From contig JAPWGK010000005.1 in the NCBI GenBank assembly GCA_029641185.1, forward strand, positions 2,232,001-2,296,000: a stretch of 64,000 nucleotides of DNA. Direction: 5' to 3'. How positions within the stretch are numbered: position 1 is the first letter of the stretch; each line of letters begins with the position of its first letter. Below, in pieces: positions 21,178 to 54,255 of the stretch. The notes under the pieces were generated by a model that was not told the DNA's origin, ran no database searches, and saw only the letters and a list, made by a program, of their open reading frames with translations. This stretch comes from Pseudofabraea citricarpa. Its lineage: Eukaryota > Ascomycota > Leotiomycetes > Helotiales > Dermateaceae. The position numbers were made by a program, and so were the translations under genes.

Positions 21178-22272
21178 TCATTCCCCAGATTGCTGAACGG
21201 CTGGAGGAATTCCAATGGCTTGGAGAACGCTCATAAGTTTCGCCTCGTCGTTTCTCAGAGCATCCCATTCTGGCTCGCTCTTGACCAGTAACGTACCGGC
21301 CAGGAGCGTGCCGTTGAGAGCAACAGGACCAACTGACTCACCATCTCTGGATTCTATACTTTTGCCTTCAGAAGTTCGAGGACATAGAACCATAGTTTTG
21401 TCCGTGAGTCCAATATTGTAGCTAATGAGCGAGGAATCACCATGTTTATCGTGTAGCTGTAAATCAGAAGATGGGTGCTCGTCTACAAACGATCGGGCTG
21501 CATCACACGCATTCTCATAGAGCTTTTTGTAGATAGAATGGAGTGTAGCAGCTGATGGCTCCTCTGGAAGGGGAGAGGAAAAGTAAGTAAACGGCAATGC
21601 TGAACATGTTAGATCCTTGCTTTCCAACATAGGTAATACAAACGTACTAGGTTCTGATATTGACATATCAAAGGGAAGTGAATCTGCCAATGGTTTCCAA
21701 TTATCATATTCCACGCCTTCCATCATCGACTGCACAGGCAAGAACTGTATATGTCTATGTGGCTGACTGGCTCCAGAGTGTTCTCCCGAATTGAAAAATG
21801 CGAATAGCTTTCCATGCTTCCGGTATGATTTCAAGCACTCGTATGCTGCTGCAAGATCTGACTCTTCTAACAAATGTGTCTGCTCTTTGAATTCCTTAGT
21901 GGCAAGTATGAAATGCTCTGGCACAACCGCAAACTTATTCAAAACAATGATGTGATTTGGAGGTAGCTCGCACACAAGCAGCGCTTTCGGTGGGTCATGG
22001 AAGGGGTCGAATGGCTTGCTATTGTCGCGCGGTTTATTCGACTTTGGTTTGTTCGCCAATGCTGGTGAGAAGCGGACTTGGAACTGTGCTTTGTGAGACT
22101 TGAAGTTTGAAGTGAATGGTGGGGAAGCTTGACGTACAGGAACTCTGCGCTCTCCGCAATGAACAATTGCCACCTGGGTTGGATAAAAGTTCAATTCATT
22201 GGCTGCCTTAGCTGCGTTGAATCTTTCTGCCACAAGTGCGGGTAAATTGCTGAGCGCTCTTGAATTAATCAT
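21178..22272 (-). CDS. Ap4A phosphorylase / ATP adenylyltransferase (Apa1/Apa2 type)
   Basis: Single-exon, 364-residue enzyme of the Apa1/Apa2 family. It splits diadenosine tetraphosphate with phosphate into ATP and ADP, controlling dinucleoside polyphosphate levels. The HIT-like catalytic motif QPHRHIQF lies at residues 170-177, with His172 and His174 as the key pair. Upstream are HIIVLNKFAVVPEHFILAT and FFNSGEHSGASQ, both typical of the family. The C-terminal domain has TYFSSPLP and SYNIGLTDKTMVLCPR. The length is normal and the start codon is unambiguous because the next upstream sequence is not conserved. It is transcribed convergently with the Myb-like gene. Confidence 0.93.
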   Translation of the reverse strand: MINSRALSNLPALVAERFNAAKAANELNFYPTQVAIVHCGERRVPVRQASPPFTSNFKSHKAQFQVRFSPALANKPKSNKPRDNSKPFDPFHDPPKALLVCELPPNHIIVLNKFAVVPEHFILATKEFKEQTHLLEESDLAAAYECLKSYRKHGKLFAFFNSGEHSGASQPHRHIQFLPVQSMMEGVEYDNWKPLADSLPFDMSISEPSTFVLPMLESKDLTCSALPFTYFSSPLPEEPSAATLHSIYKKLYENACDAARSFVDEHPSSDLQLHDKHGDSSLISYNIGLTDKTMVLCPRTSEGKSIESRDGESVGPVALNGTLLAGTLLVKSEPEWDALRNDEAKLMSVLQAIGIPPAVQQSGE

Positions 22273-23134: not shown

Positions 23135-23395
23135 CTAGCTTTCTAAATACTTCTTCTTCTCCTTGATAGATTCTTGCAAATTCCTAATCTCTTCCACCCT
23201 TTTTTGCTTCTTCTCCGTCAGCCATACGCTAGAGGTGGGCCTAAATAATGAAAATAGTAAGCACACTGATTTTTTGATAAGGTGCAGAGGTCTGTCTTAC
23301 CGAAAGACCAGAGCGCGTGTTGCCACAGCGGAGTATATCACCAGTTCCCAGATTTTGAAATCCAAAAATTTGTTGATGCGAGCTGCGAGACTCAT
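23135..23395 (-). CDS. small 'KYLES' family protein, copy 1 (unknown function)
   Basis: Predicted 66-residue protein in two exons on minus: 23395-23301 and 23240-23135. The intron is GTAAGA...TTTAG after exactly 95 coding nt (phase 2). The N-terminal half is hydrophobic, one likely membrane helix (IWELVIYSAVATRALVF). The C-terminal half is a charged helix ending EKKKYLES. A second gene at 29045-29318 encodes a homologue with the intron at exactly the same position and the same ending (REKYLES plus four residues). Conserved frame, intron position and ending argue that both are real genes. It is divergent from a 'MAIP' gene starting 310 bp away. I do not recognise the family. Confidence 0.6.
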
Positions 23396-23704
23396 TGTGA
23401 CAGACGAATACGAGATGTCGAGGAGGGTTGGCAATAGGGATGACTCGGATGAGTGAGTTGTGAAGTGAGGAAACACACATGTAGTTGTAGATATCTGTGC
23501 TTTTCTTTTCTTTTTTCAATATTTAAATACGACTAGGGCACCAAGTTTTTGGCCTTATGATTTTAGCATGCGTGTTAGCCCAAAATTATTAAGCATCGTA
23601 GCGAGCTACCTTGACCTCCCACAAGACTCTATTTCTTTCGCTTTGGAATTCTTCCAGAATACGATCTTTATCATCAACTGGCAATAAATTAATACATCTC
23701 TAAT
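23396..23704. promoter_or_regulatory. shared intergenic promoter region of small-gene pair 1
   Basis: 309 bp between the two divergent starts. It is AT-rich with TTTAAATA-like sequence near 23520-23526. No gene lies inside. Both genes must be driven from this interval. Confidence 0.4.
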
Positions 23705-23988
23705 ATGGCCATACCTGTCGGCCTTCAAGCGGCGTGGCGGGTGTACCTAGTCACTATTACAATGGTGAATATTGGGCGGTATGATTCCCCGCACAGAGTG
23801 CACTTGAGTTTCTCCCCAAGACCTATACTAACTTTTTGCAAAGATGGAGTAAATTTGGCTTTTCAGAGTATCTCCAAGCAAGGGCCCAAAATAAGGAAAT
23901 TCTGAAGCTCACGGGTGTCAATGAGGAGCTGGAAAAGATTATCCGTGAGATGGACGGAAAGCGGAAAGTGGAATTTACAGCAAGATAG
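23705..23988 (+). CDS. small 'MAIP' family protein, copy 1 (unknown function)
   Basis: Predicted 60-residue protein in two exons: 23705-23742 and 23844-23988. The intron ends with a perfect TACTAAC branch point and CAAAG acceptor. The donor (GTACCT) is the only one that keeps the frame and phase of the homologue at 28433-28687. It begins MAIPVGLQAAWRV, against MAIPLGFQAAGRV in the homologue. It ends with a charged helix containing QNKEILKL and EELEKIIRE, against QKEEIVKL and KELENIIRK. Exon 1 is shorter than in the homologue, so the donor could be misplaced or the copy partly decayed. It forms a divergent pair with the KYLES gene on its left. No known family recognised. Confidence 0.5.
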
Positions 23989-25174
23989 CTAGAGAAGGGG
24001 AAAGAACTGGAAATTCGAGGTCAAAAATCGAAAGAGAGACCGCTTCAGCATCGAGGGTGAAGAGAATGGAGCTTTTAGGGTTCCTGTTTCTGTAGTTTAG
24101 GATTTGGGGTTTTAGGAGGACGATGCTTCGCCAAATTTTCAAAGGCTTCTCAGCTCTGTATTTCAAATGCCATCATGATCACAACGTCAACGTCTTTGAT
24201 TGCCTCAGCGGCTCGCGGTCTTGTTGATACTAATGTAGCTATAAAACGGCAACTCGACGTAACACTTGCAGCATATATCCAGCTCGAAAACCTTTCCACT
24301 GCAATGGCTCGACGTTTGAGCATTTACCTCATCGATATTGAGAAAACCCTCACAACAACCTGCAGCAATATGGCAATCTTGCCTATTTCTAAATTTTAAT
24401 CTCGTAAACAATGTACTTGAAAGACATTACAAATTACCCAACCGCACCAGAGAATGAGGTTCAGCGTAGGTAGATCATGTTATATGTAGCATTGGCCCCC
24501 TGGATATCAAAGAAACTAGAATTTTTCTTGCGACCAACTGTACGAAATCTTAATGTGAATATAACCGAGCAACGCACTTAGATGAAAGATCTCCTCGAAA
24601 AAGATTCTGAAATAGTCTTTCTTTCATGATTATTATCTCCGAATATCCCCCTGGTCTCTATATAAGCATGGAGTAGCTAAGACTAATATAGTGATTAAGA
24701 GAACTTCATAATAGAAATCACTTGGGGAAAAGAGTTTCTGTTGATACACCCGGACTACCACGTAGTGCGAGTAATTGAGGGGTTATTACCTGGTGCCCTA
24801 CCTACAGAATATCAGTGGGATTCACTGAATCATACGCCTTGAGCTGGTAGGTAATATTGGTGTTTCTATGGAGGATCGTAAGGATCCGTGAGGTTATATA
24901 GGAGTACCCAGTCCAGTCACCTGGTATTACCAACAGTTTCTAATACCCAGTCTGTAGGCTATTGAACGGATAGTAAAGAAAGAGTGGTATATTCATATAA
25001 TTCTATTTATGCTATGAAGCCTGGCAGATGGGATTTTTTCGAGGGTAGGAGTTCAATGGTTTCTGTGGTATGACTGAGGATGATGATGATGTTGATTGAT
25101 TGATACTCTGCGCCAGGCAAGAGCTATATAGCTACTATCCTACACGTGACAGTTTAAACTGCTGTCTGATCAAA
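23989..25174. other. AT-rich gap, no secure gene
   Basis: One open frame from an ATG at 24175 to 24399 (74 aa; alanine/leucine-rich with two amphipathic stretches) is possible as another small protein but has no homologue here. The stretch 24640-25000 carries several copies in both orientations of a CCTGGTA/TACC-type motif (ACCTGGT near 24788, CACCTGGTATTACC near 24920), as in decayed repeat DNA. Confidence 0.35.
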
Positions 25175-26581
25175 TCAAATCGTTCTCCTAGTTGTCTGCC
25201 CTTCTTTATCCCAGTCACGTACACCTCGTGTTTTACTCTCCTTGACCTTTCTCAGTACAAGCTCTTCCATTTCATTCCTTTCTGCCTTAGAAAGTAACTT
25301 GACCCCATCTTCGTACCCGAAATTCTTTTTGAAGTACTTTGGATTCGTAACTATCTTTTCCCAAAATATTTCATCGAACGCCCAACTACTCCGGGCCGCG
25401 TACGCCAACCAAAAATCTCCACTCTCCCAACTTAACTTCATCCGAGCCGACAACCGCTGGTGTTCGGCAAGAGTACCATCATTGATCATGGCATCTTCCC
25501 GCTCTTTGAGGACCGTTAAGAATATTCTTAGTTTTGGCTCGTACTCTTTCACCCAATCAGAAATTCCAGTTGGCCATTTCTCTGGCATTTCAATGAGTAA
25601 CCACCATGGAGGGCTGTAGGCAAATTCTGCCGGGGCAGCATAGGTAAACTCCCAATCTATGACACCCACAATTACGCAGTTATCGTCGACGAGCACATTG
25701 GACGGACGAAGATCATCGCAAAACAGTTTGAAGGGCTCTGGACCAGGCTTTTGACTGCTGGGAAACCGGCCCTCTAATATGAGTTTGCGAAACAATTGGC
25801 GAGAAACGTACTTGCGTCGGCAATCTTCAGCCGAATCGATGGCATCGTTGCGTTGCGTTGATAAATGAATAAGGTTGGTATCAGCAAGGGCAGCGAAATA
25901 GGAGGACGAGGTCTTGAAAGCAGTAGATGGTAGCTTTTTGGGTGGAAAATTGGCTATTGAGACAAGTTCGTTCATGTTGAAGGTTAACGGGCGGCCCTTT
26001 ACTGACCAACCGCCGTCTTCGAGTTCTACAAGGGACCCGATCTGAGCGAAAGAGGGTCGAGAAAGTTGGAGTAGCACATTGGCCATTTGGCCATATGCAA
26101 ACCTAAGCTTGGCTTCTGGTACTCGAGGATTTAGGATTGGTCGTTCTTCTCTTTTAAAGCCTGGCATCTTGAGTTCATCTGTCATGTCATGGGCATGGCG
26201 GATATAATCCATCATGAGGAAAGGACCAATCTTAGCCGGGCTCTCATTAGCCAGTCCGTGAAGTAGAACAAATGGTACTGGTATTGAGGTCTTCTCGGCG
26301 ATGTATCGCATAACGGCAACCTCTTTACGAAGCTTCTCCTCGGGGAACATGATGTTGGCTGGCTTGGGGAAACGTATCATGGCAGACCCATCGGCAAATA
26401 TCATCTGCAGACACACATTGAAGGCTCCTGCAGTAGGGCTTTTGAGCTCTTTGGCAACACCTCCCCTCTTTTCGTGCATGAATTTGCCGATCTCTCGCAA
26501 TACATCTTGTTGGAACAGTCTTTGAACCCAAGCTTTGTACTCCGGCTCGCTCCTCACCGAAGCCTCATAATCGTAACGCAT
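25175..26581 (-). CDS. APH-like phosphotransferase/kinase domain protein
   Basis: Single-exon, 468-residue protein of the aminoglycoside-phosphotransferase (APH/choline kinase) superfamily, a group greatly expanded in fungi. Key regions: FNVCLQMIFADGSAMIRFP (beta strands of the N-lobe), the catalytic loop FCDDLRPSNVLVDD with Asp290 and Asn295, and the metal-binding VIDWEF with Asp309. The usual His two residues before the catalytic Asp is Cys. The open frame extends further upstream but without an ATG. I start at the ATG at 26581 because a TATATA box on the minus strand lies about 95 bp upstream (near 26673-26679). It sits between the two mirrored small-gene pairs. The substrate is unknown. 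Confidence 0.82.
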   Translation of the reverse strand: MRYDYEASVRSEPEYKAWVQRLFQQDVLREIGKFMHEKRGGVAKELKSPTAGAFNVCLQMIFADGSAMIRFPKPANIMFPEEKLRKEVAVMRYIAEKTSIPVPFVLLHGLANESPAKIGPFLMMDYIRHAHDMTDELKMPGFKREERPILNPRVPEAKLRFAYGQMANVLLQLSRPSFAQIGSLVELEDGGWSVKGRPLTFNMNELVSIANFPPKKLPSTAFKTSSSYFAALADTNLIHLSTQRNDAIDSAEDCRRKYVSRQLFRKLILEGRFPSSQKPGPEPFKLFCDDLRPSNVLVDDNCVIVGVIDWEFTYAAPAEFAYSPPWWLLIEMPEKWPTGISDWVKEYEPKLRIFLTVLKEREDAMINDGTLAEHQRLSARMKLSWESGDFWLAYAARSSWAFDEIFWEKIVTNPKYFKKNFGYEDGVKLLSKAERNEMEELVLRKVKESKTRGVRDWDKEGQTTRRTI

Positions 26582-27402
26582 CTGTACTTGTTCCGTGGAA
26601 ATGACGGGTTGAGAAGGGGAAATAGATAGCTCTGGTGAAGACGATCCAGAAGATGAATCCCGCCGGTGATGGTTATATAGGTAATTGATGACTGTAAGTC
26701 TAGGGGGTCGGTGGTGCTCGAAGCTGAGTAGGGCGCTAAAAGGCGGCCGCCTGAGGGGTGTGAGCGTAGCGCTTCTTGTCAACAACACCAATCACATTTG
26801 TGAGGCTAAGCGAGGCACATTTCCAATGGGCTTGGCGCTCTTGGTCGGCTGTTGGGTACCTAGGTACACACGTAATAATGGAGACGTCACAATTGTTGGA
26901 ATTCCCTCAATGTTGGTTAGGCGTAGTTTTCATAGCCCCCTCCGACATAGCACCGACATTTTGAGACGGAGGCAGGTAAGTCTGCCTTATCTCAAAAATA
27001 GAACTCAGCTCATGGCCAATCCTTTTCTTCCTCTTAGCCCCATCAGATTTGCAGCCATTTACAATTGGATATTGTTCAATTTGGTGCTGCCAATACGCGC
27101 TATCTAGCTGCGGGTGACAATTTGGGTTGCTTGAACGGCCGACACAATGTTGAGTCAGAAAGCAGTAGTAGTCTAGTGACAAACAGGCCGAAGGAGCCTG
27201 AGAAATGGTATATAAACAACCACTTTCCTCCTTTCTCTGTTCTCTATCATAAACTTCATTACAATATACAAGTCATCAATCATACCCCTCAGCTCATTCC
27301 TCGCCAAATTCATTCAATAACCAAGTCACTATCATCAGGCAAGCCACTGCAAACTTCTTCTTTGACGTCAAAGCTAATCTTTGGTCAGTCCCAGCATCAA
27401 AA
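26582..27402. promoter_or_regulatory. divergent promoter region
   Basis: Holds the minus-strand TATATA box of the APH-like gene (about 26675) and a plus-strand TATATAAA box at about 27208-27215, roughly 190 bp before the 27403 start codon. No gene is supported in between. Confidence 0.5.
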
Positions 27403-27651
27403 ATGTCTCGCAAGGAAACGGAGTTTCAGATGAACATCAGCAGCAAAGATGCCGCCCAACTAGATGACTCGGGCAAATCCTCTGGAGGAAAGCGCGGTGT
27501 ACAGTATGGAGGACCCAGCTCCATTAGGCTTCCAAACGACGCGGAGGAAAAGCAATTGACGGCTTCTGGGAAAGCATCTCGCGACAAGATACAGCATCCG
27601 ACAGAAAATATCGCACAGGATTACAAGAGAGAGAGCGATGACAAGCGTTGA
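27403..27651 (+). CDS. small hydrophilic protein of unknown function (82 aa)
   Basis: Single-exon ORF of 82 residues with an A-rich start context and an upstream TATATAAA box. It is strongly hydrophilic: Lys, Asp, Ser and Gly dominate, and there are no hydrophobic segments or cysteines. Segments such as GKSSGGKRGVQYGG and KQLTASGKASRDKI suggest a disordered, stress- or spore-type protein, though no family is recognised. The second half is rich in Lys/Asp/Glu. It lies in the accessory block between the two mirrored small-gene pairs. Confidence 0.5.
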   Translation: MSRKETEFQMNISSKDAAQLDDSGKSSGGKRGVQYGGPSSIRLPNDAEEKQLTASGKASRDKIQHPTENIAQDYKRESDDKR

Positions 27652-28432
27652 GTGATTGGTCTTGGTCCTTGGAGATGCGGAGCAGAAGGTCCTGAAATGA
27701 AAAGGCTTGGGATGCCAGTGTATGGAGGAATTTGAGGATTGTCTGTTTTTACCCGAATCAATAAATACATGCTCGATCACCACGCTGTGCAAAAGTGAAG
27801 ACGATAACAAGTCTTTCAAGTAACTAAGCCTTTGTGCTACTTATTGGTTCCAGTAACTAAGAAGTTACTTTCAAGTGAGCTAGACGTTTTATTCAGGCTG
27901 ACATCAGTATAACTGTAATTTTTTAATCCGCTACGTAGATTGCATAGTAGTAGTCCGTAAACCAGTGGAAACATAGCTCGGAGTCATGCCACTGGTAGGT
28001 TATTGTTTTCAAACCCAACCAGTGCATAACTAACAAAACGTCGACCCACCCGTGTGGCATAGTATATTGAATCACATGTTTCTAGCTATCGCCTACTTCA
28101 GTTACATGCGTCTAAAACAAAGTGAAGGAAATCAACTTACCGATTTATTTTTTGGTTATATTATGAAACGAGGAACGCTATAAAATGTTCGTGGTTTTGA
28201 ACCGCGAGGAATTACATACCCTGACAGCAAGCTACATTAAATAGAAACGAACTTAAAAGAAACATTTTACTTAGGGATAGTATGAAACTCCAGGAGAAAA
28301 ATAAAGACAATAATTTAGATTATTGAAAACTAAGTTATGTGCATGTTTGGCCTCACAATCACGTGCCTTGCAGTTTTAGCAAATTTAAAGTTGATTCTCA
28401 CGAAAAAAGGATATTTATCCTTAATTCTCTCC
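27652..28432. other. AT-rich gap
   Basis: No gene supported. A short inverted repeat (ACCAGTGG at 27961, CCACTGGT at about 27989) could form a hairpin. The element AGTAACTAAG occurs twice near 27822 and 27852. Confidence 0.35.
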
Positions 28433-28687
28433 CTACTTGTTATGCTTCCGGATGATATTTTCAAGTTCCTTATGAACACTCCGTAGCTTCACAATTTCCT
28501 CCTTCTGTGCTTTTGCTTTGTAACGCTCTGAAACTTCGGCTTTGATGCAGCTGCGCATGAAATTAGCTTTGTTCTCAAGAGCAGCAAACGAAAAATGAAA
28601 TAGAGAAACTTACAGTATTAAATATCCCGGGGAAAGCGAATGTGTGAAGACTCGTCCTGCTGCTTGAAACCCAAGTGGTATCGCCAT
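28433..28687 (-). CDS. small 'MAIP' family protein, copy 2 (unknown function)
   Basis: Predicted 63-residue protein in two exons on minus: 28687-28614 and 28550-28433. The intron is GTAAGT...GCGCAG (63 nt, phase 2). It begins MAIPLGFQAAGRVFTHS, with a mildly hydrophobic first half (LSPGYLIL) that could be a membrane or mitochondrial-targeting segment. The second half is a charged helix (KAKAQKEEIVKLRS, then ELENIIRKHNK). It is clearly homologous to the protein at 23705-23988, sharing M-A-I-P, the QAA-x-R-V block, the intron phase and the EL-E-x-II-R helix. It forms a divergent pair with the KYLES gene at 29045. No recognised family. Confidence 0.6.
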
Positions 28688-29044
28688 GCTTTATGTATTC
28701 TGCCTTTTATTTATATGCTGAGATTTTCTCGGTGAATCTCGGTGGATAGTCAGATCTTTTATAGGAGGATCTTGTCTCAGATGATTCAATGAATTATTTG
28801 GTATTTGTATAGTGGAAAACATTGTATATCTCGCTACCGTGAAACGAAGCTTCTGGGTAACATTAGTGGCACTAACATTACAAGTGGTAAAAAGCCTGCA
28901 CACTAGCAATAGTTCGTCAGCTTATCTCTTAAACCAACGTAGTAATCTCAATTCTCAAATATTTCTCCTTGCATAACGATCCGCCTTCCCTGATTTCAAA
29001 TCTGTACCGAATCGATTATCTTCCAACCTGGCAAACAAGTCAAA
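28688..29044. promoter_or_regulatory. shared intergenic promoter region of small-gene pair 2
   Basis: 357 bp between divergent starts, AT-rich, with no gene inside. I see no long sequence shared with the equivalent interval of pair 1, so the duplication is old. Confidence 0.4.
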
Positions 29045-29318
29045 ATGGGTATTTCAGAACGCATTATCAAAAGCTTTCCTTGGAGACCTTGGGAAACGTC
29101 ACTGTCTGCTGGTTTAATTACAATTCACTTAATATATGGGTAAGAGCTTTTATTCCTCACTCCTCACCTGAATATAACATATTCACTAACTTTATGTTAG
29201 CCGCACTAGGTATCCGTGGTGGATTCGAAGGGAGGAGGAAAGGATGATAGAAATGAAAGAGCTGAAAATGAGTATTAAAGAAAGGGAGAAATACTTGGAA
29301 AGTTGTGATCGAAAGTAG
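29045..29318 (+). CDS. small 'KYLES' family protein, copy 2 (unknown function)
   Basis: Predicted 70-residue protein in two exons: 29045-29139 and 29201-29318. The intron is GTAAGA...TGTTAG after 95 coding nt, phase 2, the same position and phase as in the homologue at 23135. The N-terminal half has a hydrophobic helix (LSAGLITIHLIY). The second half has WWIRREEERMIEM and ends KEREKYLES followed by CDRK. Homology to the copy at 23135-23395 is seen in the Trp-led linker, the charged helix and the ending. Real coding status is supported by conservation of the intron and reading frame between the copies. Function unknown; a small membrane-anchored coiled-coil subunit is my guess. Confidence 0.62.
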
Positions 29319-43790: not shown

Positions 43791-45771
43791 TTAAACAAGA
43801 CTCAAAGTTCGGCTGACTTTCAAATCAAAACTTTGACTTTCACCTAGAAAGTTTCCTATTCCTACTCGTCGGTATGAATTTGTACCCAAGCAAGGCTCCA
43901 AAATGAGAAATGTTTCCCTTACCATGTCCTTGTATTTGTACACTCTTGACCGCAAAAGGAGACATAGATACCGAGTCGGAGACATTCGGAGTCCGTTGTC
44001 GAACTGGCCTGCATACCTCCATGGAAAGGGGCGTTTCCCAAAATCTGGCTTCTCATTATCAGCATCCAAGTACGGAGGATTGTGATCTTTTCCCTTGGGT
44101 GCAACGCTCAACACGATTTCTCGGACTGGACCATTTAAAACCAGTCGAGTAGATTTGACGCTGGATGTCAGAGGCTTAGAAGTCCAAACCACTTCCCATT
44201 CAATAAGTTTAACATGGTCATAGATATCCACATTAACCTCATCTTCGTCCCTTTCGGATCTCCAAAAATCATATTCGATTTCATAGGGGCAAGATAACCA
44301 GGTCCAAGACGGAATATTAGACAGAGAACATGGAGTTTGTGCAACCCCCTCAGGCAATTTCGCAATTCTTATCCATAACAAGTCCTGAGGAAGAGAACTT
44401 TCCCACAGGCCAAGAATTGGGATATCTCCTGTAGTAATTTGATAATGCCGAATGATTCCAGACAAGGCAGGAAGCCTATCTTCAGGGATAGAGAATTGCC
44501 GTCGTGAATAACTTTTAATCCATTGCCACCATATTTTGTTCGTCCCAATTTGAATATTGTCAGGTAGAATAGGAATTGAACTATGGTTCATCGTTGTTTG
44601 GTCGAAAACTAGATTTGTCTCAGTTCGACATTCGCATCGACATTCCCAGTAAAGTCCTGAGCGCATCAAGTGCAAAACGCGATTTGAGAGAACCATCTCT
44701 TGGAGTACCCAGCCTCTAGTATTGAGTACCGATTCTTCGGCAAATGTTCTGATGTCGCCTGGTTGTATTCGTAAGAGGACTCCAGGGCCACCTTTGGAGT
44801 CACTAGTGGATAAAAATGCACTGGTTTTATTCAAGCTGCGGTCTGGACTGGGTTCTGAGAAGAAGCAGCCCACGGAACCGTCAGCTGCATCTGTGGCTGC
44901 AATTGTAATTGAGCTCCCTGAATAGATATCCTGCATTCTGGAAGCTTCGGTCTCCCATTCAGCATGGTCGTTCTGCAATATACACAACGCATCGATCCAT
45001 AGATATTGGATGTGCAAGTGGCGAGTCAAAGTCAATGCATCCCGCAGAGTCTGAGGGAGCAGTTGATAAGGTATTTCTTTTCTATGCGAATTTTCGTTTT
45101 CCCTAGTCGTACAGAACTTTGCATTTCCCCAACAATAACTCAGGGTAGCATATCTAACATCCGAATCATGCAAATCTTTAGACATGACAAGTCTAGGAGG
45201 ATGTCCACCAGGCGAGCCGACTTCGATCAACCTCTTCGGCATTCGAGTTACAAGAGGTTTGCATTTCTGATGTTTCGACTCACAGTCATGGAGCCACGAC
45301 TTTGCAGTAGAGATTCTGTCCAGTGTCGAAGTTGCAAGGGTTCTCCATATCGGCTGCTGCGCATAAATCGCTAGAAATATTATTTTACCATAAGCTAAGC
45401 AATGGGGAGATTGTTAACCTACAATTAATGTTACAGGTGGTAATGGAAAAGAAATATATAAAAGTAAATCCCCGCGCATCGAAATTCGTCTCCAATATCG
45501 CCCAGGAGAGTGCCGACCCTACTCTCCTGATTTCTTTTAATTTTATCTTTAGACTTATTGATTCGTAGGTTTCTTTATCCATATCAGGAAACCGTCGTTG
45601 ACTCTTTTCAAATGACCAATTTGTCAGCAAAACTTTGCAAATAGAACAGCTTTGACTGGACTGTTCCATGAGCCCTATGTTCGGATAATGAGCTCGGATT
45701 GCCGATGGCTCTTCCGTCGGCGGGATTAATCCAGAACAAAAAGTGCAAAGCTCCGCTGCATCTGGTTCCAT
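43791..45771 (-). CDS. HET-domain protein (heterokaryon-incompatibility type)
   Basis: Predicted 646-residue protein in two exons on minus: 45771-45435 and 45394-43791. The HET domain starts at about residue 195 with ATLSYCWG, followed by LPQTLRDAL, YLWIDALCI, EASRMQDIYSGSSITIAATDA and RGWVLQEMVLSNRVLH, the full set of family blocks. The N-terminal CTFCSGLIPP and CSICKVLL cysteine pairs are also common there. HET-domain proteins trigger programmed cell death after fusion of unlike hyphae, or act in fungal innate immunity; most genomic copies are not tested. The intron is short (40 nt, GTAACA...CTTAG) and joins SITT to YGKIIFLAIYAQQP in frame, so exon 1 is the less certain part. No effector domain (NACHT, patatin) is attached. 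Confidence 0.82.
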
Positions 45772-52102: not shown

Positions 52103-54255
52103 ATGGCTTGGCGATCGCAGACATCGCAGACAGGCTCTAATGCCATGCCTCTAGGAAACCGACGACGCTTTGGTGGTGAAAGCGCATCCCCCCCTCGCGA
52201 CGAATACAACCCAACCCAGCCGCCTGAACCCAGCAGCTTCAAACGCGGTCGCAGTCCAGTAAGAAGTGAGTTTATCGTCATATTCTGTCAGACTTAAGTC
52301 ACTAACATCACGCAGCTGAGGAACCAGCAGGTGACGGCAACAGACGACGCAAGAAGAGAAACCGTTGGGGCGATGCTACAGAGAACAAAGCCGCCGGTCT
52401 AATGGGACTTCCCACTGCCATTATGGCCAATATGACCAGTGAACAGCTTGAAGCTTATACTCTCCACTTGCGCATTGAAGAGATTAGCCAAAAACTTAGG
52501 ATCGATGATGTTGTCCCTGCTGATGGCGATCGGTTAGTTCAGCATGACAACGTACTTCCGATCTAGTGCTAACTCTTATCAGTTCCCCATCCCCACCACC
52601 TCAGTACGATAACTTCGGTCGCCGTGTCAATACACGAGAGTACAGATATCGAAAGCGCCTTGAGGATGAGCGTCACAAGCTGATTGAGAAGGCTATGAAG
52701 GTCATTCCTAACTATCATCCACCACAGGACTATCGTCGTCCCACTAAGACACAGGAGAAAGTTTACGTGCCAGTCAACGATTATCCAGAGATTAACTTCA
52801 GTATGATTGCTAACCCTCTAACATTTCTAACTTCCTACCCCAATTTTCTTACTTCGTTTTTGTGTGACAATGCGTGGGGCATTGAGAGAATGCAGCGTAA
52901 TGTCTTCACTAACATGTCATACTCACTACACTTTGCTCCAAAGCTTTTGACCATACACTAACACTTAGCTCCCTTACTAAAGTTGGCTTACTTATCGGAC
53001 CCCGTGGAAATACATTGAAGAAGATGGAAACTGAATCACAGGCCAAGATTGCCATTCGTGGAAAAGGATCCGTCAAAGAAGGAAAAGGTCGCTCCGATGC
53101 TGCCCATACCAGCAACCAAGAAGAGGATCTCCACTGCTTGATCATGGCGGATACCGAGGAGAAGGTCAATAAAGCCAAGAAGCTCATCCACAACATCATT
53201 GAAACTGTGAGCACCCTCTTCCTTTCTTTTACATCATTTGCTGACAACACTAGGCTGCATCTATTCCTGAAGGTCAAAACGAGCTCAAGCGTAATCAACT
53301 TCGAGAACTCGCTGCTCTCAACGGTACTCTTCGTGACGACGAGAACCAAGCTTGCCAGAACTGTGGTCAAATTGGTCATCGCAAATATGACTGTCCCGAG
53401 CAACGAAACTTTACTGCCAACATTATCTGTCGTGTCTGTGGAAATGCTGGCCATATGGCAAGAGACTGTCCCGATAGAGCTCGTGGAACCGATTACCGAA
53501 ATGGAGGAGCTGCTGGTGGACCTCCTGGCGCAACTGCTGGTCGTATTGGTACTGGCGATGCTGTTGACCGTGAATATGAGGTAAGCAGATTCCATTTTTG
53601 CTTCAAGTAGAACGAACTAACATTGATATAGCAACTCATGCAAGAGCTTTCCGGTGGTGCACCCGCTGGAGCAGCCCCTGCTCGCATCGAAGCTGGTCCA
53701 GGAGGTTTCGATCAAGGACCTAGTGCTGAGGGCGGCGACGTTAAACCTTGGCAACGTGGACCCACCGGCGCAGCTGCTCCTTGGCAACAACGTGGTCGCG
53801 GCGATGATCGTGGAAACGATTTCAATTCTCGTGATTCAGGATCTGGTGCTGCTCCATGGGCTAGAGATCGTGGACGTGGCAATGATAACCGTGGTGGCGA
53901 CTACAACGCAGCTGGATACGGTGGATCGGGTGGTGCTGCTCCTTGGCAACAACAAGCCCCAGCTTATCCCGCTGGTGGATATGGTGGATATGCCGGAGCT
54001 CCTGCTGCTCCTCCTGCTGCTCCTTGGCAACAACAAGCTCCAGGTTATGGCGGTGGTCAACAAAGCATGGGTGCACCTCCTGGATTGGCACCACCTCCTG
54101 GAGCCGCTGGCCTGAGTGCGTTACTTCAACAGTTTGCTGGCAGTCCTCCCCCACCTCCTCCTTCTGGTGCTGCTCCTCCTCCACCTCCACCATCTGGTGC
54201 TCCTCCTCCACCACCTCCAAGTGATGATCAACCACCACCCCCTCCAGGAGCTTAG
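52103..54255 (+). CDS. BBP1: branchpoint-bridging protein (BBP/SF1)
   Basis: Predicted 590-residue splicing factor that recognises the intron branch point in the commitment complex. Six exons: 52103-52265, 52316-52532, 52583-52800, 52983-53206, 53254-53580 and 53632-54255. The U2AF65-binding Arg/Trp element is at KKRNRWGD. The SF1 helix-hairpin region follows ([18 protein letters not shown], then [15 protein letters not shown]). The KH-QUA2 RNA-binding domain has [14 protein letters not shown] and [14 protein letters not shown]. Two CCHC zinc knuckles follow: [14 protein letters not shown] and [14 protein letters not shown]. The end is very rich in Gly, Pro and Gln-Gln-Ala repeats (APWQQQAP repeats, Pro-runs). 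The 182-nt intron before exon 4 splits the KH domain at NFI-GLLIG. Family call is certain. Confidence 0.94.

Follow-up and report, generated by a model that had tools for sequence, protein, structure and literature searches.

The window analysed here is a 64,000-nucleotide stretch of the Pseudofabraea citricarpa genome (assembly GCA_029641185.1, positions 2,232,001–2,296,000 of the 2,445,665-base contig JAPWGK010000005.1). It contains two head-to-head pairs of small genes in mirror order, four two-exon genes that encode 63–72 amino acids each once splicing is rebuilt from the sequence (Table 1). Each pair joins a gene that we call KYLES (K) to a gene that we call MAIP (M). The copies of the pair, K1–M1 and M2–K2, lie 4.4 kb apart as mirror images, and the gene coordinates place the two genes head to head in both. 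A preliminary description of this DNA had claimed four small genes in two mirrored divergent pairs, and all four frames are indeed open after splicing at the coordinates given here.

Introns were assigned by listing every GT–AG intron of 40–130 nt that leaves an open frame, which gave several candidates per gene. Those chosen (60, 65, 63 and 61 nt in the order of the window) combine the best donors and, by inspection, a CTNAC- or CTAAT-like branch site with a gap-free alignment of the copies. They interrupt the coding sequence after nucleotide 95 in both K1 and K2, as had been claimed, and after nucleotide 74 in M1 and M2; all four are in phase 2, which had been claimed for MAIP. The two gene types are thereby alike in plan, with a phase-2 intron dividing a hydrophobic first part from a charged second part. 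No ATG lies farther upstream within the open frame of K1 exon 1. The K-x-K-Y-L-E-S ending described earlier is common to both KYLES proteins in the looser form (K/R)-x-K-Y-L-E-S, since K2 reads R-E-K-Y-L-E-S, and in K2 it is not terminal, being followed by the four residues CDRK. The two divergent spacers are likely to be shared promoter regions.

Table 1 Features of the two gene pairs and of the interval between them. Positions count from the first base of the window.
Feature	Position	Strand	Description
KYLES-1 (K1)	23395-23135	-	66 aa; spliced frame open
K1 exon 1	23301..23395	-	codons 1-31 and 2 nt of codon 32; genome self match
K1 intron	23241..23300	-	60 nt, phase 2, GTAAGA..TAG
K1 exon 2	23135..23240	-	charged helix, C-terminal KKKYLES, including stop
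K1/M1 divergent spacer	23396..23704	.	309 bp
MAIP-1 (M1)	23705-23988	+	72 aa; spliced frame open
M1 exon 1	23705..23778	+	begins MAIPVGLQAAWRV; no acidic residue in first 28 aa
M1 intron	23779..23843	+	65 nt, phase 2, GTATGA..ACTAAC..AAAG
M1 exon 2	23844..23988	+	charged helix containing ELEKIIRE, including stop
APH-family kinase-like frame between pairs	25175..26791	-	Pfam PF01636 E 1.4e-7
82-codon frame between pairs, beside APH-like gene	27403..27651	+	charged/polar-rich; no Pfam match at E 1e-3
MAIP-2 (M2)	28687-28433	-	63 aa; spliced frame open
M2 exon 1	28614..28687	-	begins MAIPLGFQAAGRV; found in six-frame comparison
M2 intron	28551..28613	-	63 nt, phase 2, GTAAGT donor; nucleotide position as in M1
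M2 exon 2	28433..28550	-	contains ELENIIRK, including stop
M2/K2 divergent spacer	28688..29044	.	357 bp
KYLES-2 (K2)	29045-29318	+	70 aa; spliced frame open
K2 exon 1	29045..29139	+	splice model; genome search
K2 intron	29140..29200	+	61 nt, phase 2, GTAAGA donor; nucleotide position as in K1
K2 exon 2	29201..29318	+	REKYLES and CDRK, including stop

Paralogy and coding signal of the mirrored pairs

Each gene of one pair has a paralogue in the other, as both the spliced alignments and a six-frame comparison of the window reveal. K1 and K2 are identical at 22 of 66 residues (33%; BLASTP E 7e-13) and M1 and M2 at 27 of 62 (44%; E 2e-15), without a gap in either alignment. The six-frame comparison, an all-against-all BLASTP with no prior hypothesis, covered the 1,637 open reading frames (ORFs) of at least 25 residues in the whole window. 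In it, the second exons of the two MAIP genes ranked first (E 1e-7) and those of the two KYLES genes second (3e-4); the first exons of the MAIP genes came third (2e-3), level with one unrelated pair. Two non-overlapping pairs were found at E 1e-3 and ten at 1e-2. Twenty residue-shuffled ORF sets together produced 17 pairs at 1e-3 and 138 at 1e-2, with a minimum E of 6e-6; reversed sequences were not usable as a control because alignments survive when both sequences are reversed. Taken alone, the M exon 2 match is thus significant, and the K exon 2 and M exon 1 matches are not. Even so, the mirror-image placement, the spliced alignments and the common intron place make a chance origin untenable.

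Paralogy of both genes together with the mirrored order bears out the earlier claim that a two-gene module was duplicated in inverse orientation. The six-frame comparison gave no further pair at E 1e-3 in the window that would indicate duplication of flanking genes. Among the repeats listed between positions 22000 and 31000 (seven direct families and eight inverted pairs), no DNA repeat connects corresponding parts of the two pairs, and the introns of the copies show, by eye, no alignment beyond the splice signals.

The differences between the copies carry a coding pattern. Across 128 aligned codons, the copies are identical at 69 first, 85 second and 59 third positions, so that positions 1 and 2 together (154/256) exceed position 3 (59/128; Fisher p = 0.006). 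Comparison of nonsynonymous (dN) and synonymous (dS) divergence placed dN below dS for MAIP by both methods used (NG86, 0.42 and 1.4; YN00, 0.50 and 0.76); for KYLES it yielded an NG86 dN of 0.59 and a dS that was not computable, hence no ratio. Exon 2 of KYLES is more conserved than exon 1 (14/34 versus 8/32 identical residues), and the exons of MAIP are similar in this respect (17/37 in exon 2, 10/25 in exon 1). In codon-usage score, for which ten reference genes span 0.005 to 0.271, K1 (0.161) and M1 (0.103) both lie above the 95th percentile of 130 non-coding ORFs (0.097), and M2 (0.071) and K2 (0.011) fall below it and above the non-coding mean of -0.073.

That these are not genes at all, only chance open frames or the remains of a non-coding repeat, is scarcely credible. 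The codon-usage score of K2 is weak, with a shifted frame scoring higher, and the K exon match alone stays within the range of shuffled ORFs. Against this stand gap-free spliced alignments with phase-2 introns at identical positions, the excess of changes at codon position 3, and the lack of any DNA repeat linking corresponding parts of the pairs. The best explanation of the pattern appears to be selection at the protein level that has kept both genes of each pair.

Protein features and the search for relatives

The exon-2 pieces of K1 and M1 are each predicted as a single helix (mean predicted local distance difference test scores of 90.8 and 90.3), from two-sequence alignments of the exon pieces alone rather than of whole proteins. 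Preceding them is a mildly hydrophobic front, whose best 19-residue Kyte–Doolittle means are 1.29 (K1), 0.46 (K2), 1.33 (M1) and 1.04 (M2). The customary cut-off for a transmembrane segment is about 1.6 over 19 residues, and by this simple score, used in place of a dedicated predictor, none of the four proteins has one. Heptad periodicity in the rear part was reached by 77 (K1), 316 (K2), 432 (M1) and 424 (M2) of 2,000 shuffles. The preliminary description had seen a hydrophobic front and a coiled-coil-like rear: the front is mildly hydrophobic but below transmembrane values, and the coiled coil is unsupported by these simple scores. Its suggestion of a membrane complex is weak, with every maximum at or below 1.33. 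The first 28 residues of M1 and M2 contain no acidic and two or three basic residues, and those of K1 and K2 contain two acidic residues, one of them within a common Trp-Glu at positions 16–17.

KYLES and MAIP are not versions of one another. Homology of K to M was rejected, with an hhalign probability of 0.4% and four local alignment scores that were reached by 809, 383, 604 and 89 of 1,000 shuffles.

We then looked for relatives within the source assembly (43,985,132 bases in 43 contigs). Proteins were searched singly, exon by exon, and the best candidates were scored, so that the copy number is a lower bound and a very diverged copy could have been missed. In these 44 Mb, each of K1, K2, M1 and M2 finds its own gene and, 5–6 kb away, exon 2 of the mirror copy. 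The mirror matches (E 0.0258 and 0.0138 for M, 0.0137 and 0.0583 for K) are the sole non-self matches below 0.1; nothing else lies below E 0.9, and no unpaired copy was found in the assembly. Two extra K1 matches, L010 (E 0.95) and L011 (E 5.3), look like chance rather than copies, as L010 is antisense to a 224-residue frame and L011 lies within a 166-residue frame lacking the KYLES pattern. Hidden Markov models built from the two sequences of each exon found no diverged copy in the 264 kb made up of the window, the contig end and 19 neighbouring stretches, the lowest E apart from the four genes being 0.25.

Outside the genome, Pfam held no family that scored below E 0.03 with K1, K2, M1 or M2, the PDB, searched with K1 and M1, gave nothing at E up to 10 for K1 and nothing below 0.97 for M1, and among 5.8 billion proteins none has three 5-residue words in common with K1 or M1. 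No relative of K or M exon 2 was found when these exons were used as queries against viral contigs. Nothing on the families was recognised in a text search of the literature, where an unnamed sequence is not findable by text. The preliminary description had recognised neither family, in agreement with the libraries searched (Pfam, PDB and the protein database).

To M2 and K2 we added, as a control of similar size, a 64-residue stretch of the ATP synthase subunit e encoded by this genome (an interrupted gene, L035), all three in one mixed profile. Run against the protein database, it returned 121 candidates, 112 of them at E up to 10, and all 112 carry PF05680; the top control matches came from Phlyctema vagabunda and Coleophoma cylindrospora. 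Judged by subunit e alone, the source fungus is related to Phlyctema and Coleophoma (Dermateaceae, Helotiales). As the control retrieves PF05680 proteins of close relatives, the database does hold small proteins of sister genera. No KYLES or MAIP protein is among the 112 matches listed, for a mixed profile whose sensitivity is below that of a pure profile. KYLES and MAIP may be restricted, fast-evolving, or unannotated in the genomes of relatives. The point of PMC7394265 is that small ORFs, with 80 residues or fewer, often escape notice.

ATP synthase subunit e (PF05680) is a tiny mitochondrial helix protein with a hydrophobic front and a charged rear. In these family features and in size, with the genome's own copy inspected, KYLES and MAIP resemble this subunit of the F1Fo ATP synthase. 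An identity of KYLES with subunit e was rejected: up to E 10, PF05680 is absent from the Pfam matches listed, and the alignment to the genome's copy is no better than that of shuffles. Besides the clear subunit e gene on contig C8, the assembly has a second, sub-threshold match to this family (L036, C42:877377-877511; 17.5 bits, E 0.154), either chance or a diverged relative.

More broadly, K and M could be fast-diverging forms of known tiny organelle subunits or assembly factors, changed beyond recognition by sequence. Single-helix mitochondrial accessory proteins are small and encoded in two exons, with a mildly hydrophobic, basic front and a charged C-terminal helix. KYLES and MAIP are similar in size, exon number, N-terminal part and C-terminal helix, and M1 and M2 are acid-free over their first 28 residues. 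We nevertheless consider this origin improbable: the Pfam and PDB searches recovered no such family or chain at the E values given above, the genome's subunit e aligns to K or M no better than to shuffles, and hydrophobicity stays under the usual transmembrane values.

Proposed joint action and its alternatives

The reading we favour, with belief and doubt about evenly balanced, is that a single, old duplication turned a divergent two-gene unit into two inverted copies, that both genes have been kept under selection in each, and that their products act together. The inverted duplication, the paralogy, the gene structure and the mirrored order are observed. Both genes survive in both copies after deep divergence, and joint action of K and M would be the simplest explanation of this. 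K and M are probably partners, joined in a single small helical complex, and an obligate partnership, as proposed in the preliminary description, is plausible. Of its interpretation as a whole, the inverted duplication, the APH-like kinase and the lack of a known family stood, whereas the membrane complex and the coiled coil are weak, and its linked effector/immunity pair lacks positive evidence.

In the proposed scheme, a divergent K–M unit would have been duplicated once, long ago, in inverted orientation. K and M would be co-expressed from their common spacer, and their charged C-terminal helices would make contact, either with one another or with a single target of both. Loss of one partner of a copy would be disadvantageous, and both genes would so be kept. 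The two pairs would then encode two forms of a single small helical complex, like the two divergent H3–H4 pairs of yeast. As a weak guess, this complex may be located inside or on an organelle, the mitochondrion being the likeliest, given the mildly hydrophobic N-terminal parts and the acid-free M proteins with two or three basic residues in their first 28; such a composition hints at organelle import at best.

A serious if unlikely alternative is passive co-duplication, in which one event copied two unrelated small genes that happen to share promoter sequence, and every copy then persisted for a reason of its own (sub- or neofunctionalisation), with no joint action of K and M. A single event accounts for all of the observations, K and M are not homologous, and the spacers keep no detectable common element. 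It would need four separate retentions, though, through divergence to 33–44% identity.

Several points tell against joint action. No similarity is left between the two divergent spacers (309 versus 357 bp) in either orientation beyond that of shuffles, with scores reached by 214/300 and 141/300, and K and M are without homology to each other. Neighbours copied in one event would both be present without any partnership, and it is from sequence that we infer both K–M interaction and expression. The helices were predicted for exon pieces, the transmembrane and heptad scores are weak (the heptad pattern being marginal at best), and K2 scores higher in a shifted frame than in its own (0.048 versus 0.011). 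A homologue of K or M outside the window was found neither in the protein database or Pfam, nor in the PDB for K1 and M1, nor in the source assembly.

A close parallel to a duplicated divergent pair whose products would act together comes from the histone genes of yeast, which according to PMC8551654 occupy two divergent loci for H3–H4 and two for H2A–H2B. As with HHT1-HHF1, HHT2-HHF2, HTA1-HTB1 and HTA2-HTB2 of budding yeast, where the two small proteins are partners, two small proteins are encoded head to head and the pair is present twice. The histone copies are identical or nearly so, whereas the K and M copies are 33–44% identical, lie 4.4 kb apart and are mirrored, and the partnership of K and M is our proposal. 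The arrangement, a duplicated divergent pair, is thus a known one, built here from two families without a name in our searches, with the duplicate adjacent, mirrored and strongly diverged.

Linked pairs of small genes also raise the question of killer/immunity (toxin–antidote) systems, in which one protein harms, its partner protects, and the copies would differ in specificity. The genes are tiny, linked and divergent, their copies have diverged, and the TTAGGG array at the right end of the contig places them about 184–190 kb from the chromosome end; moreover, no annotated relative was found in a database that holds sister-genus proteins. We regard this as very improbable all the same. There is no positive evidence for it, no sequence feature indicates toxicity, the conserved intron and purifying pattern are equally expected of ordinary genes, and of the five gene families known for drive in fungi, four consist of single genes (PMC8092558). 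Equally doubtful is a two-component self/non-self or killer/immunity unit of a few Helotiales in which the pairs K1–M1 and K2–M2 would be mutually incompatible.

Two known fungal systems illustrate the distance. het-S/nwd2 and related STAND-effector pairs (PMC3321046) are adjacent genes proposed to be a functional unit, divergent in Podospora. K and M are likewise linked, adjacent and divergently arranged, but those pairs combine a common prion-forming motif with a STAND protein; K and M, each under 75 residues (63–72), share no similarity with each other and have no Pfam domain. Spk-1 of Neurospora has 134 residues, no predicted functional domain and two predicted transmembrane domains, and one gene does both jobs (PMC8092558). 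K and M are similarly small and without a predicted functional domain, yet here two genes unrelated to each other are involved, and their hydrophobic stretches are weak.

Annotation easily overlooks spliced genes of so small a size, and neither family is named in the libraries searched. Joint duplication followed by retention through deep divergence would amount to a natural experiment, one that predicts partnership of K1 with M1 and of K2 with M2. If homologues in other Helotiales always adjoin, K and M would make up a two-subunit machine that is new to description; were the killer/immunity reading true, it would be a two-gene fungal system from undescribed protein families.

Neighbouring genes

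The APH-like kinase that had been claimed between the pairs is supported by its Pfam match (Table 1) and is probably context, outside the two-gene unit. The other neighbours are ordinary: an Ap4A phosphorylase gene lies to the left of the pairs, and genes for a GH47 protein and an aldo/keto reductase lie to the right. At the contig end (L034, C39:2435670-2445665), the last 16 bases after the TTAGGG array are not telomeric and may be left over from the assembly or the library. Positions 43791-45413 on the minus strand, 14 kb from the second pair, hold a HET-domain (heterokaryon incompatibility) gene (PF06985, E 1.3e-31). Farther right on the plus strand, an open frame at 52913-53584, which we take to resemble part of a KH-type splicing factor, precedes a glycine/proline-rich low-complexity frame at 53632-54255 with no Pfam match.

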